A stretch of 64,000 nt of DNA from Paludibaculum sp. GTDB lineage: Bacteria; Acidobacteriota; Terriglobia; Bryobacterales; Bryobacteraceae. The notes beneath the pieces were generated by a model. That model had not been told where the DNA came from, searched no databases, and saw only the letters and a list, made by a program, of their open reading frames with translations. Below, in pieces: positions 7,724-11,682 of this stretch (positions are counted from its first letter, which is position 1; each line of letters starts with the position of its first letter). The translations under genes and the position numbers were made by a program. The stretch is from NCBI GenBank assembly GCA_029973955.1, contig JARKQJ010000198.1, forward strand, positions 62,001-126,000, given 5' to 3'.

Positions 7724-7800
7724 CGGGGCGTAGCGCAGTCTGGTAGCGCACCTGCCTTGGGCGCAGGGGGTCGCCAGTTCAAATCTGGCCGCCCCGACCA
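7724..7800 (+). tRNA. tRNA-Pro (anticodon UGG)
   Basis: A 77-nt cloverleaf. Acceptor arms CGGGGCG and CGCCCCG pair perfectly. The D-arm contains TAGCGCAGTCTGGTAGCGCA. The anticodon stem CCTGC/GCAGG encloses CTTGGGC, so the anticodon is TGG (proline). The T-arm is GCCAG-TTCAAAT-CTGGC, and the 3' ACCA includes an encoded CCA. It forms the left boundary of the accessory islet. The antisense frame across it produces the familiar spurious protein motif SGRPDLNWRPPAPKAGALP, which is not a gene. Confidence 0.98.
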
Positions 7801-7962
7801 AAACCTTTCCAATCAGAGGCTCTACGCCATTAATGGGGGCAGTCCCGCCTCCGACTCCCTCCTCCTGTGGTGGTGCTGTGTGGGCGCAGCCAGTCGAAAG
7901 CCAGCCGAGACGTGGACCTTCGAATTTGATACATTCAACCGTTCTAGAGAGGGATGCCCAGG

Positions 7963-9006
7963 ATGTTCGCGCACAATTCGTTGACGCCACGGGACGCCAA
8001 ATTGCTCGTTCGTTATTTCGATGGAGCCGATGACGTTGTGTCGGCACGCCTGACGCGTGGGTTCAGCCCGCATGAGGATCACCTCACGTCCCTTCTCTGC
8101 GAGATGCTGGATGACAACCTCAGCGCCTTGAACACGCTCCCGTATCCTCTCCCGAAGTTGAAGGAAGATCTCGCAGCGGATAAGCGGAGTCTGCGTGCAT
8201 CTCTTCAGATCGAAGCTAGGAAGTACCCGCCCCACATCGAGCGCCGGTTGACCTCATCCGACCTGGGAATCATCGTTGACTACCGCGACAATTTCACGCC
8301 GCGAAACTCGTTTCAGAAAGGTGCTCTCTTCCAGGCCAAGAAACTCTACAACCAGCGCAATCACGAGCGCTATTCAATCACAGACTGCTTTGATGAGTTT
8401 GATCCGGATCAGTTGCGGAGAATGCTGGACATGGCTACCGATCCATCACTCAACGCTGATCCAGCGCATCCGGAGCACTCGGGCGGTGACCTATTCCATT
8501 ACCTGTTCTACTGCCCGCGTGTCGAAGCCTATGATGAGCCATCACAAGAGGAACTGTGGCACCATGTGATCCCTGCCGGCAATTGTCTATTGCGGTACTG
8601 GCATCACCACCCGATGTGGTTCGCGGAAGGCCCACTGTGCTTGGCAGAGGCACATCACCTTCACGAGTTTGCTTCGGACCCATCGCGCCATTTCCCCGGT
8701 CTCATCGTCAGCGACATTGGCTGGTTGGAGAGCGAGTATTTTCCAAACGGCAACCAACCCGCGCCTCCGATGCCTCGCAAGCCGAAGACGCGGGCGCGTG
8801 ATGTGTACGAGCGATTGTGGGCGCACACGGACCCATTGTCCTGGTTCCTGGTCTACGGAATGTTGATGGGGCGTTGCGGCTCGTCAGGGCGGCGTGCTCT
8901 CGCGTTGGTTATGGGCAATCCTGATGCGGCAACTCAGATGGACTTCCCGATTTTGCCGAGGTACGTCATGACCGTTCGGGTTGAGGTTGGCACGCAGCGC
9001 GGATAA
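7963..9006 (+). CDS. Putative PD-(D/E)XK-type nuclease of the tRNA-Pro islet
   Basis: Uncharacterised protein of 347 residues. The chosen ATG has GAGAGGG 9 nt upstream; another ATG at 7954 abuts that sequence directly. Visible motifs fit a restriction-endonuclease-like fold: an acidic helix around PHEDHLTSLLCEML (Glu38/Asp39), SSDLGIIVDY (Asp100), and GALFQAKKLY (Gln124-Ala-Lys126). The last is a QxK variant of the (D/E)xK motif. The C-terminal half contains HHHPMWF and HHLHEF but no domain I recognise. Base composition is visibly lower in GC than flanking genes. The DUF6236-like gene follows after 48 nt on the same strand. DNA cleavage is inferred from motifs only. A non-nuclease binding role is possible. 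Confidence 0.6.
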   Translation: MFAHNSLTPRDAKLLVRYFDGADDVVSARLTRGFSPHEDHLTSLLCEMLDDNLSALNTLPYPLPKLKEDLAADKRSLRASLQIEARKYPPHIERRLTSSDLGIIVDYRDNFTPRNSFQKGALFQAKKLYNQRNHERYSITDCFDEFDPDQLRRMLDMATDPSLNADPAHPEHSGGDLFHYLFYCPRVEAYDEPSQEELWHHVIPAGNCLLRYWHHHPMWFAEGPLCLAEAHHLHEFASDPSRHFPGLIVSDIGWLESEYFPNGNQPAPPMPRKPKTRARDVYERLWAHTDPLSWFLVYGMLMGRCGSSGRRALALVMGNPDAATQMDFPILPRYVMTVRVEVGTQRG

Positions 9007-9054
9007 GACGAAAGTGTGCTATGGTGCTTGAAGCCAAGGTCAAGGAGTCGCTTT

Positions 9055-10167
9055 ATGGCATTCACTAAGGCTCTCTATTATCCTCGTATTCAGGTGCCAA
9101 ACGAAGGCTGGCTCAAGACAGCTATTCTCTATTGGGAGGATGTCCAAACCATTGTTCCGGCTTCGATGCCTGAACCCTATTGCGGCACATCGCGAGTTCT
9201 CTTTGACGCGGGCGTACTCTCTCCACTCCATGTTCATCCGCAAATGGACTCGGTTGAACGTCTAGCGGTCAAGGTACTAGACTATTTCGGCTCCACTGAG
9301 GCAGATGGCGTTCTGATTGAGGGTGGATTGCGGCAGTCAGATCTTATCCATCCGGAGAAACTGCCTGAGTTGCGTGAACTCGTAGAAATCCATCCGGAGA
9401 AATTCCCCTACGGGCTACAGCATCAATTGCAGCGCATGTTCCATGGGCGAAAAGATGGGTGGGTCAGAGTGGATCGCCCTTTCGCGAGATTCTACATGAC
9501 CCTCTTGGCCACGGCGCTGGCAGAGGATCACGGTATAGCACTGTTGACCGACCTTCCCGCCAGTGATCGTCTCGCCGTCAGCGTGCGCCTCGATAGCAAA
9601 CTAGGAATCCCCTACATGCGTTTTGGTGAGCCGTATTGGCATCGATACGGACGGCACTGGCTCCACGAACAGCGTGTTCCAGGCAGTCTGGCAACGGCAT
9701 TGCTGGCTGATTTGACGCTCCAGAAGATTGCCATCAATCCCGAAACGCCTATCGACGCCCTGCTCCGATTCCGCGAAGACCATAAGAATGAGTTGGGCCG
9801 TTTCCGGACCAAGATGGCTGAGTTAACAAAGTCGATAGATGGTGAATTGACGATAGAGGCCCTTCAACAGCGTGTCGCGGACATCTATGCCAACGAGGTC
9901 AAACCAACGCTGGCCGAAATGAGGGATTGCTTAAGCGCATCGAGAATCAAGTGGGGGCTTGAGAGTTTTCTCAAGACGTCGATGCTGTCGGTTCCTACCA
10001 CCGGCACATTGGCGACCTGCGGCCTGAGCGTTCCACATGCGCTCTTGGCTGGTGCCGGGATCTCACTCACAGTGTCCGCCGTTCTCTACAACGTTCAGAG
10101 ACGCGAAGAAATGTCTAGGAATCCCTACTCGTACCTATTGGCAGCCGAAGCACATTTCCGGCACTAG
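9055..10167 (+). CDS. DUF6236-like protein, partner of the islet nuclease
   Basis: Protein of 370 residues. The ATG at 9055 is preceded by AGGAG at 7 nt, so the longer frame from 9016 is rejected. The N-terminus (KALYYPRIQVPNEGWLKTAI, then LYWEDVQTIVP) matches my memory of the uncharacterised DUF6236 family. A helical middle region follows (LRFREDHKNELGRFRTKMAELTKSI). Near the C-terminus is a hydrophobic segment (VPHALLAGAGISLTVSAVLYN), then RREEMSRNPYSYLLAAE. The hydrophobic segment could be one membrane helix or a buried core. Function is unknown. Its conserved spacing from the nuclease-like gene and shared low GC suggest the two act together, perhaps in defence. Confidence 0.55.
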   Translation: MAFTKALYYPRIQVPNEGWLKTAILYWEDVQTIVPASMPEPYCGTSRVLFDAGVLSPLHVHPQMDSVERLAVKVLDYFGSTEADGVLIEGGLRQSDLIHPEKLPELRELVEIHPEKFPYGLQHQLQRMFHGRKDGWVRVDRPFARFYMTLLATALAEDHGIALLTDLPASDRLAVSVRLDSKLGIPYMRFGEPYWHRYGRHWLHEQRVPGSLATALLADLTLQKIAINPETPIDALLRFREDHKNELGRFRTKMAELTKSIDGELTIEALQQRVADIYANEVKPTLAEMRDCLSASRIKWGLESFLKTSMLSVPTTGTLATCGLSVPHALLAGAGISLTVSAVLYNVQRREEMSRNPYSYLLAAEAHFRH

Positions 10168-10272
10168 GCAGCCCCGGTGCAGAAGTTCCGGCGGGGATCC
10201 CCATTCTCGGTTTACGGGCCACGAAAACGTTCGCTACCACGCCGGACAGCGCCCCAGTGAGGGACACGACCC
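10168..10272. other. Short region with no supported gene
   Basis: About 100 bp between the DUF6236-like gene and the orphan ORF, with overlapping small frames on both strands. No RNA, repeat or terminator was recognised. Confidence 0.4.
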
Positions 10273-10575
10273 TCAGTTGACGGCTTCTGTGCTGCGCTGC
10301 AAAGTCCTTTGGAAAGCCTGGCGTTCGGCCGGGTCGTCCCATGACGGCCCGGAGTCGATGACGTAGAATTGCCGAAGTAGTTGTCGGACCGTCCACCCTT
10401 GCTGCAACCGGTGAAGGGCCAGCCCGGCGCGGCCGGTTTGCTTCAGATGCGTGGCGGCCAGCGTCACGGCTTCGTTGTACGAGTAGCATCCCTCCGACAA
10501 ACTGCGCTCACCGATTCGGCCCGGCACGCGCTCATCGTTGGCCACCACGGCCCTCCGGCAGATCGCAGCCAACAC
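10273..10575 (-). CDS. Orphan hypothetical protein of the islet
   Basis: A possible 100-residue protein starting at GTG (ending at 10575), with no family recognised. It is Arg/Gln/Leu-rich, with segments such as NEAVTLAATHLKQTGRAGLALHRL and TVRQLLRQFYVIDSGPSW. No signal peptide or membrane segment is visible. It lies 59 nt downstream of hicA on the same strand and could share its transcript. It may instead be a decayed fragment of a longer gene, since frames here are poorly resolved. Existence as a protein is uncertain. Confidence 0.3.
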   Translation of the reverse strand: MLAAICRRAVVANDERVPGRIGERSLSEGCYSYNEAVTLAATHLKQTGRAGLALHRLQQGWTVRQLLRQFYVIDSGPSWDDPAERQAFQRTLQRSTEAVN

Positions 10576-10634
10576 GGCCCGGCCGCGTGTGAAAGCTCAA
10601 ATGGCGTGGCTCGCCCCTGGCAGCAACGCAATGG

Positions 10635-10862
10635 CTACCTGGGCCAATTCACTTCGTCTATGCCACTCCCGTCGATGATGGCTTTCATGGTGCCCAGTGG
10701 CAGGATTCGCCCACGGTGGTAAGGCACAATGACTTGTTTTCCGGTGACAACATTGCGCCACTTCTGGTGGCTGCCGCTGGAAGCGGCCAGCGCAAAGCCG
10801 TGCCGCCGAAGGATTGAGATCACCTGGTCGGCGTTCAGCCGGGGCGTACCGCGATCACCCAA
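10635..10862 (-). CDS. hicA: HicA-family mRNA interferase toxin
   Basis: Toxin of a type II toxin-antitoxin module that cleaves mRNA. It has 75 residues, the usual HicA size. The dsRBD-like fold is seen in ADQVISILRRHGFALAASSGSHQKW, with the catalytic histidine at residue 32, and ends TMKAIIDGSGID. The start appears to be TTG ending at 10862, overlapping the end of hicB by 8 nt, so translation is probably coupled. HicB lies upstream in the transcript, the less common order. The pair sits at the right end of the tRNA-Pro islet. Confidence 0.88.
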   Translation of the reverse strand: MGDRGTPRLNADQVISILRRHGFALAASSGSHQKWRNVVTGKQVIVPYHRGRILPLGTMKAIIDGSGIDEVNWPR

Positions 10863-11058
10863 CCGTTACCTCGACCAACTTCGCGGTTGGCGGCACTTCG
10901 ATGTCGGTGGGCGAGAGGTACAGCCGAATGGCTTCCTCGATTCCTCGTCTCGCCTCATCTTCCGTCTCACCAGCCGAGGCGCAGCCCGGCAGTTCAGGGC
11001 AGACGGCGGAGAAGCTCTCGGTCTCCGGATCGTATTCCAAGACCACTCGGAACCTCAT
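10855..11058 (-). CDS. hicB: HicB-family antitoxin (short form)
   Basis: Antitoxin that binds HicA and usually represses the operon. The ATG ending at 11058 (MRFRVVLEYD) is chosen over an upstream frame because it matches the HicB beginning. The 67 residues form the partial RNase-H-like domain: VVLEYDPETESFSAVCPELPGCASAGETEDEA, then AIRLYL. It ends soon after (KLVEVTVG) with no visible C-terminal helix-turn-helix or ribbon-helix-helix domain. Autoregulation may therefore need another factor. No -10 or operator was recognised with confidence. Confidence 0.88.
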   Translation of the reverse strand: MRFRVVLEYDPETESFSAVCPELPGCASAGETEDEARRGIEEAIRLYLSPTDIEVPPTAKLVEVTVG

Positions 11059-11137
11059 GCTTGCAGTATAACGCCACGCCCTTCTGGCCGCCCTGAGCAA
11101 ATCCGTTGCTAGGTTTTGTGATGGCTGTGGTGGGTGC

Positions 11138-11167
11138 GGGGCGGCGGACTTGGCCGCCCCGGTTTTT
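11138..11167 (+). terminator. GC-rich hairpin with T-run at right end of the islet
   Basis: A perfect 8-bp stem, GGGGCGGC (11138-11145) with GCCGCCCC (11153-11160), encloses a 7-nt loop and is followed by GGTTTTT on the + strand. It lies just past the stop of the - strand gene at 11170. The T-run is on the + side, although no + strand gene is adjacent. The right arm shares 11 bases (TGGCCGCCCCG) with the 3' end of tRNA-Pro. Confidence 0.6.
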
Positions 11168-11169
11168 GG

Positions 11170-11682
11170 TTAGGACAGGGGGACGTTGAGCTTGCGGGCG
11201 ATGGCCTTTAGGAGCTCGCGGTCCTGGTTGCTGAAGTTGACTGGGAGTTCGGTGTTGAGCGTTTTGTTGCGGACGTAGACTGCGCCGCCGAAGTCGACGA
11301 TCAGCTCTTCGTCGGGGTCGAGGGCGCGGACGGGCACGGGGACTTCGGGGGTCCGGGTGCCGGGCTCGTTGGCCGCGACCTTGGGGGGGATGTTGACGCT
11401 CATGGCTTCCGAGCGAAGCATCATGAGCGGCTCGAAGTAGGGCTTGCCTTCGGCATTGAGCTTGGGGTTGCCCTTTTCGTCCATGGCGAGCACATTCTCG
11501 TAGATGACCGTGCGCTTGGTGGACTGAGCGAGGCTGGGGTCGAACCAGCCTTGGGGCGGACGAGTTTCGTCGAACACGGGCGGCTCGGAGCCGGTCGCGA
11601 GACGATACTGTTCGCGGGTTTGGTAATGGGGAAAAAGATAGAGCTTGTCGAGCCCGTACTTCGGAATTGGTAAAGCGGCCAT
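11170..11682 (-). CDS. Hypothetical protein downstream of the LamB-like porin
   Basis: Protein of 170 residues; no family recognised. The start is the ATG ending at 11682 with GGAGG 8 nt upstream. Visible features are an N-terminal MAALPIPKYGLDKLYLFPHYQ, a proline-rich central part (RTPEVPVPVRALDPDEEL) and a C-terminal IVDFGGAVYVRNKTLNTELPV with a short helix. There is no signal peptide or membrane helix. It lies 103 nt after the porin on the same strand and may belong to that operon. It marks the return to core genome composition after the islet. Confidence 0.7.
   Translation of the reverse strand: MAALPIPKYGLDKLYLFPHYQTREQYRLATGSEPPVFDETRPPQGWFDPSLAQSTKRTVIYENVLAMDEKGNPKLNAEGKPYFEPLMMLRSEAMSVNIPPKVAANEPGTRTPEVPVPVRALDPDEELIVDFGGAVYVRNKTLNTELPVNFSNQDRELLKAIARKLNVPLS

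Follow-up and report, generated by a model that had tools for sequence, protein, structure and literature searches.

The window analysed here is a stretch of 64,000 nucleotides from Paludibaculum sp., whose source genome is a 6.5 Mb draft of 282 contigs, estimated to be 94% complete and 6% contaminated. The locus of interest is composed of two genes, A and B, placed between a tRNA-Pro and a HicA-HicB pair (Table 1). The spacing of 48 nt that the first-pass annotation had given for A and B, and its positions for E38, D100, Q124 and K126, agree with the ORFs and their translations. The start of A at 7963 is consistent with its relative in L012, a locus from a genome of another family of the same order, and ATG 9055 is favoured over GTG 9016 as the start of B, since the B of L012 begins at the same residue. 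As had also been proposed, the genes lie directly behind a tRNA, the end of tRNA-Pro (7800) being 162 nt from the start of A, and their GC content is lower than that of their surroundings (A 0.570 and B 0.540; window 0.646; recN, which lies nearby, 0.685). A search upstream of A gave no promoter-like site.

Table 1. Features of the A-B locus, in window coordinates.
Feature	Coordinates	Strand	Description and basis
Gene A	7963..9006	+	347 aa; PD-(D/E)XK-type nuclease (predicted); ORF and translation
Gene B	9055..10167	+	370 aa; DUF6236-like; hydrophobic C-terminal stretch at about 322-348, NPYSYLL end
tRNA-Pro(tgg)	7724..7800	+	ARAGORN; left edge of the variable site
Block common to window and L012	7956..10159	+	A, B and the gap between them; blastn
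Segment without homology at the same site of G403	7842..10632	.	Insertion in the wide sense
Left copy of attachment-site-like direct repeat	7784..7808	+	tRNA-Pro 3' end plus the next 8 nt
Right copy of attachment-site-like direct repeat	11083..11107	+	21/25 identical; just beyond HicB
HicA toxin homologue	10635..10862	-	PF07927, 49.7 bits; start codon uncertain; neighbour of the A-B unit
HicB antitoxin homologue	10855..11058	-	PF15919, 36.6 bits; neighbour of the A-B unit

Concerning protein A, no Pfam model matches it at E 10, and no NCBIfam, PADLOC or PHROGs model at E 1. An alignment of 12 A sequences, among which that of L016 is frameshifted and aligned only as far as the shift, shows E38, D100, Q124, A125 and K126 to be invariant (12/12), and the same holds for L41, T42, G102, L128, Y137, Q150, Y183 and P185, while position 91 is a His in 8 of the 12. 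E93, absent from the residue list of the first-pass annotation, is invariant as well. The AlphaFold2 model obtained with the 12 sequences (pLDDT 78.8, pTM 0.84) has an alpha-beta-beta-beta-alpha core (H38-49, E79-87, E99-109, E117-129, H148-158), where E38 opens the first helix and the second and third strands carry D100 and Q124-A-K126, respectively; pLDDT is below 50 for residues 93-97. The earlier description of A as PD-(D/E)XK-like, with E38, D100 and Q124-x-K126 as its signature, is thus borne out by the invariance of these residues and by a predicted nuclease-type core that shows the PD-(D/E)XK order of elements.

Foldseek searches with this model gave no match at E 0.001 in either the PDB or BFVD. 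VIA-align comparison with 278 chains gave five with Z > 2: Rep15, a Rab effector, was best (6.1 and 5.9), followed by I-Ssp6803I (4.5), which we take to be a PD-(D/E)XK homing endonuclease, and by two SPARDA entries (3.8 and 3.6), whose nuclease DREN is presumably a PD-(D/E)XK enzyme. The Holliday junction resolvase Hjc is also of the PD-(D/E)XK type. A similarity of Rep15 to Hjc is reported in an excerpt of PMC9308819. All these Z values lie in the common range of the tool, hence the fold matches favour a PD-(D/E)XK assignment of the modelled A without settling the case. Profile searches of solved structures with the alignments A2 and A3, the latter built from B relatives, each returned a single row no better than chance (E 0.28 and 0.45). 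Judged from its conserved positions and its model, A is very probably a PD-(D/E)XK nuclease, of a family for which the searched libraries contain no model.

Relatives of A are scattered. In a phylum sample of 396 genomes A is found in the window's own and two others; ten A loci come from genome contigs, two of them belonging to those two genomes, and further relatives lie on one Sphingomonas plasmid and in one virus contig (L022), beyond which repeat virus scans with A gave nothing. The gene is rare: L018's own genome is the only one with A among 385 of its class (at most five candidates per genome being scored), and in a profile search of 61 related genomes the other 59, including all eight others of the genus, gave no match. 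Since genome contigs were scanned with two short peptide patterns, the locus counts for A and B are lower bounds. L005 was left out of the A counts as a weak row (E 0.003, 46 residues), and so were L003 and L004, which duplicate L014 and L016.

The second protein, B, matches DUF6236 (PF19749) over residues 230-367 with E 2.6e-4 and 20.7 bits, and because this score is under the curated cut-off of 26.2 we label it DUF6236-like rather than a member. By tblastn, three plasmid proteins align with 89-100% of B; two of them are annotated as DUF6236 (E 1e-8 over 89% and 1e-5 over 100% of B), and the third comes from an unannotated record. Two more plasmid proteins align over 45% of B. All seven members of the alignment of B relatives match PF19749 at E 1, and among four more relatives scanned, L025 and L068 lie above the cut-off, while L064 and L065, which the profile of that alignment finds with E 2e-27 and 2e-16, are without a Pfam match at E 0.01. 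The sub-threshold match and the homology to annotated DUF6236 proteins together uphold the DUF6236-like label proposed at first pass. B shares with DUF6236 an NPxxYL-type end, and its C-terminal half is the part that aligns with the model. DUF6236-type genes were seen on plasmids of Pseudomonadota, Bacillota and Actinomycetota and in Acidobacteriota genomes; virus scans with B alone and with a Streptomyces-type DUF6236 set gave no match, and phage records gave no match to A, B or a phage-type DUF6236 protein at E 0.01. The Pfam entry PF19749 states no function, and none of the papers searched uses the word DUF6236.

Both a LYYP-type start and an NPYSYLL-type end recur in the relatives of B. 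The best 19-residue hydropathy window of B, near the C-terminus, has a mean of 1.66, the threshold for a membrane helix being 1.6; in five of six B relatives the most hydrophobic such window is likewise near the C-terminus, and in the sixth the window there ranks second. As the structure model of B is unusable (pLDDT 50, too poor for a structure search), membrane association rests on this borderline hydropathy. Hence, of the C-terminal end originally described, the NPYSYLL motif stands through its counterparts in relatives, and the hydrophobic helix is borderline.

The surroundings of the pair are best understood by comparison with G403, an 88% complete genome of the same genus that has the same locus (L103), with flanks 89-92% identical to those of the window. 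Homology runs through the tRNA to 7841, is found again at 10633-11075, which comprises HicA and HicB (82%), and resumes from 11169. Window positions 7842-10632 are replaced in G403 by roughly 750 nt, on which a 157-aa gene shows a weak likeness to Mrr_cat_2 (16.5 bits, cut-off 22), and positions 11076-11168 by 4.1 kb that contain one long ORF. Since G403 thus has HicBA at this site without A and B, the two genes occupy a variable slot between tRNA-Pro and an independent HicBA. On the other side of its tRNA, G403 carries an ADP-ribosylglycohydrolase gene; in G399, the tRNA is followed by yet other genes. The HicA and HicB homologues noted in the islet are real (Pfam cut-off 27 each, scores in Table 1); a role for HicBA as a component of an A-B system is rejected, given that G403 carries it with another gene replacing A and B.

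A direct repeat accompanies the tRNA end. The right copy matches 21 of 25 letters, the letters having been chosen by the repeat finder, and the next best match in the 64 kb, on both strands, reaches 17/25; at least 20/25 was reached by none of 60 random 64-kb controls (both strands) and by none of 1000 random 3.5-kb controls (one strand). From its sequence, the repeat could be an old attachment site; it is no proof of integration, since its letters were finder-picked, the right copy is situated past HicB instead of next to B, and G403 is without a second copy. Among the islet proteins scanned with Pfam, no integrase or transposase was found.

An indication of mobility comes from L012, where A is followed by B after 11 nt. 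Comparison of its 4447 bases with the window by blastn gives a single match at E 1e-3, window positions 7956-10159, with 71.2% identity over 2218 columns. Outside this block L012 has about 2 kb downstream and only 258 nt upstream, so that the upstream flank comparison is short, and no tRNA is present there. A and B are 78% and 79% identical between the two genomes, vs 48% for RecN, a yardstick assumed to be vertically inherited. Nonsynonymous divergence is low (pN 0.136 for A and 0.132 for B) and synonymous sites are saturated (pS 0.786 and 0.742), therefore both genes have been kept by purifying selection and the link between them is old. The pair seems to have passed from one bacterial family to another as a single block, which agrees with the mobile character ascribed to it at the outset, and horizontal transfer is the simplest reading of these comparisons; alternatively, sporadic loss may lie behind the patchy distribution. 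In the phylum sample, the window's genome alone combines an A match with a PF19749 match (the latter in 2/396), and among related genomes a profile search found distant relatives of B only in G402 and G414, both without A.

Wide conservation of the pair, on which its reading as one system would lean, was not found. B accompanies A in only 2 of 13 distinct A loci (the window, L006 and L012-L022), and A accompanies B in 2 of 15 B loci (the window, L007-L012, L025, L064, L065 and L067-L071; L085, with a truncated DUF6236 gene, was left out), leaving 11/13 and 13/15 with one gene only. For these counts every A locus had its ORFs searched with the B profile and every B locus with the A profile, and G402 and G414 were searched whole for A; some of the loci are short contigs, and the phage copies of B are not independent, the relative in L069, for example, being 98.8% identical to the Paracoccus copy. 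A whole search of 11 genomes or records with A relatives gave a B match in three: that of L012, that of L016, with a truncated gene on another contig, and that of L015, with a weak match (E 2e-5). Such a distribution argues that A and B are each able to do without the other. Because each gene is usually found alone, independent action with joint expression is at least as likely as an obligate complex.

It should therefore be considered whether A and B are unrelated accessory genes that came together a single time, ahead of the divergence of the two known copies, and have since spread by linkage alone. Both genes being found mostly alone, in virus contigs too, speaks for it, as does the lack of any sequence relation between A and B when one was looked for. 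Against it stand the same order, strand and tight spacing (48 and 11 nt) in two families, as well as the saturated synonymous divergence and the near-equal amino-acid identity of the two proteins, from which we conclude that the link has long been kept. Weighing these, we regard mere linkage as a serious contender whose odds fall somewhat short of even. It is compatible with reading the pair as a transferred cassette, and denies only joint function.

The genes found beside the relatives bear on what such a cassette might do. Around the A relatives, PADLOC matches at E of about 1e-10 or better were obtained in 6 of 10 loci, for 9 of the 18 neighbour proteins: PDC-S31 and PDC-S26 in L006, PDC-S49 and a type II methyltransferase in L018, PDC-S73 in L019, a TIR effector (4.9e-10) and PDC-S31 in L020, MkoA, which we take to be Mokosh, in L021, and in L017 a helicase that matches MkoA, perhaps merely as a helicase. 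A marginal match of an aspartyl-protease-like gene in L016 (6.8e-6) would make it 7/10 loci, and L013, L014 and L015 gave none. These neighbours were chosen by eye for L018-L020 and for two of L006 and were otherwise mostly the nearest called ORF, with L022 left out. For B, all neighbours were chosen by eye, and matches at E 1e-5 occur in 4 of 5 loci, for 9 of the 11 proteins, namely Gabija (GajA 7e-207, GajB 1e-174) with an effector-like gene in L065, whose B relative is itself one of the two that lack a PF19749 match, PtuA of Septu (7e-124), PDC-M01B and two restriction-type genes in L010, PDC-S06 in L008 and ShosT in L009, with none in L011. L025 and L064 lay outside the PADLOC scan; no defence gene is visible in them by eye. 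Many of the PADLOC matches are to candidate families (PDC). None of 10 control genes matched at E 1e-5, the control being small: they were 10 of 14 genes picked as closest to the midpoint of the initial 8 kb (or less) of contig 1 from seven A-bearing genomes.

Phage-type contexts were seen as well. In the virus contig L022, A stands alone among genes that look tail-like by eye; in L007 and L067-L071, B stands alone among phage genes, a type that also occurs on a Paracoccus plasmid; and in L017 an SU10-type portal gene follows the A relative. Extra genes at such phage positions are often immunity genes.

Hence, our preferred reading is that A and B make up a small cassette, transferred horizontally and placed at a variable site behind tRNA-Pro, most likely serving anti-phage defence; from the sequence comparisons we assign this a probability of about 0.6. 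The first-pass annotation had proposed a defence system made of both genes: a probable association with defence is supported by the defence-type neighbours of the A and B relatives, and joint action of the two proteins is not. In mechanistic terms, D100 and Q124 of A would bind the metal, K126 would be the catalytic lysine and E38 would assist; A would cut foreign DNA by the same PD-QxK chemistry as Mrr-type enzymes, and the target would be selected by its C-terminal part (about 160-347). B may be membrane-associated through its hydrophobic C-terminal stretch, and might either signal infection to A or be a second, independent protective gene. A stronger version, in which the pair is an as yet undescribed kind of two-component anti-phage system whose B, membrane-anchored by its hydrophobic C-terminal stretch, senses infection and licenses A, a nuclease of an unnamed PD-QxK family, to destroy incoming DNA, DUF6236 being a sensor module that islands and phages combine with different effectors, seems to us doubtful.

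Another explanation would make A a modification-dependent (type IV, Mrr-like) restriction enzyme and B an accessory to it. A shares with the PD-(D/E)XK superfamily, and with the PD-QxK enzymes of the Mrr type, the predicted core and the E, D, QxK arrangement, and excerpts of PMC12707154 and PMC3874165 describe PD-QxK replacing PD-ExK as the catalytic form in Mrr, MspJI-family and type ISP nuclease domains. Moreover, the Mrr proteins of related genomes contain a QAKRW string, sharing with A the QAK followed by R or K, and the five islet proteins scanned with Pfam include no methyltransferase. This absence of a partner methyltransferase among them also speaks against a type II restriction-modification system. 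Past QAK, however, no sequence relation between A and Mrr is detectable: none of the 12 A members matches a Pfam Mrr model at E 1 (Mrr_cat, PF04471, was among those tested), and hhalign, run between the A profile and that of eight Mrr proteins of relatives, returns a probability of 0.4%, with only 8 columns aligned around QAK. A also differs in its extra invariant E93 and in matching no Pfam DNA-binding domain. A was consequently rejected as an Mrr protein by sequence, and we consider the type IV explanation unlikely as a whole.

Two further explanations fare considerably worse. That A cuts for the element's own mobility, in the manner of homing or transposition, would fit the presence of I-Ssp6803I among its few structural neighbours and the occurrence of the genes in variable sites, plasmids and virus contigs, but is made very improbable by the islet proteins scanned, which include neither a transposase nor an integrase as a partner, and by the defence-type neighbours of the relatives. 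A toxin-antidote unit, where B would restrain a toxic nuclease A, accords with the two-gene layout and a partner directly behind the nuclease, yet can hardly be expected given that A without B is the rule, that B is large and that its relatives are mostly without A.

With respect to described systems, A and B match none of the families of PADLOC 2.0.0 at E 1, in agreement with the initial statement that no named system with this pair is known. The cassette resembles Gabija and Septu, near both of which relatives of B occur, in being a small two-gene unit in a variable island, and differs from them in having neither an ATPase nor a helicase. To SPARDA, a short Argonaute with the DREN nuclease, A has the weak structural matches given above (chains of two entries); unlike SPARDA, the islet has no Argonaute or APAZ in the five proteins scanned with Pfam.

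Overall, A indicates a nuclease family that no model of the searched libraries covers, and the uncharacterised DUF6236 family gains a concrete context, that of defence-type islands and of additional phage genes. Should either protein turn out to protect against phages, DUF6236 would become a testable defence component.

The tRNA-Pro site is variable on both flanks of the tRNA, since the same-genus relative G403 carries, at the corresponding site, a weakly Mrr_cat_2-like gene on one side and an ADP-ribosylglycohydrolase gene on the other. The window-specific segment also holds, between the DUF6236-like gene B and HicA, a small ORF, for which family searches (Pfam, NCBIfam, PADLOC and PHROGs) gave no significant match, and locus comparison shows that the corresponding site in G403 is without an equivalent stretch.

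Features at the tRNA-Pro site and at loci with relatives of A or B
Locus	Coordinates	Strand	Feature
Window	10273-10575	-	100-aa ORF
L103 (G403)	9623-10096	+	Weakly Mrr_cat_2-like gene
L103 (G403)	10315-11454	-	ADP-ribosylglycohydrolase gene
L007	5989-7209		DUF6236-like gene
L085	8695-9291	-	DUF6236-like gene
L065	624-8683		GajA-GajB pair and DUF6236-like gene
L016	4683-7028		Tyrosine recombinase, then A relative
L020	3227-4165		PDC-S31-matching gene
L006	7903-8616		PDC-S31-matching gene

Elsewhere, DUF6236-like genes occur as single extra genes amid apparent phage structural or packaging genes, as judged by eye, in L007 and in L067, L068, L069, L070 and L071. At L065, from the same genus as the window, the DUF6236-like gene adjoins a gene with a match to a PADLOC PN-superfamily effector and lies about 3 kb from the Gabija pair. 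The L085 gene is truncated or fused, its DUF6236-like N-terminal part running into a different C-terminal sequence; this locus shares a genome, on separate contigs, with L016, where the relative of the nuclease gene A bears a frameshift. The L016 recombinase, to which Pfam assigns phage integrase and SAM-like domains only, resembles an integron integrase. Two further A relatives, both at alphaproteobacterial loci (L006 and L020), lie near genes matching the candidate defence family PDC-S31, that of L006 being a DUF2971 protein.
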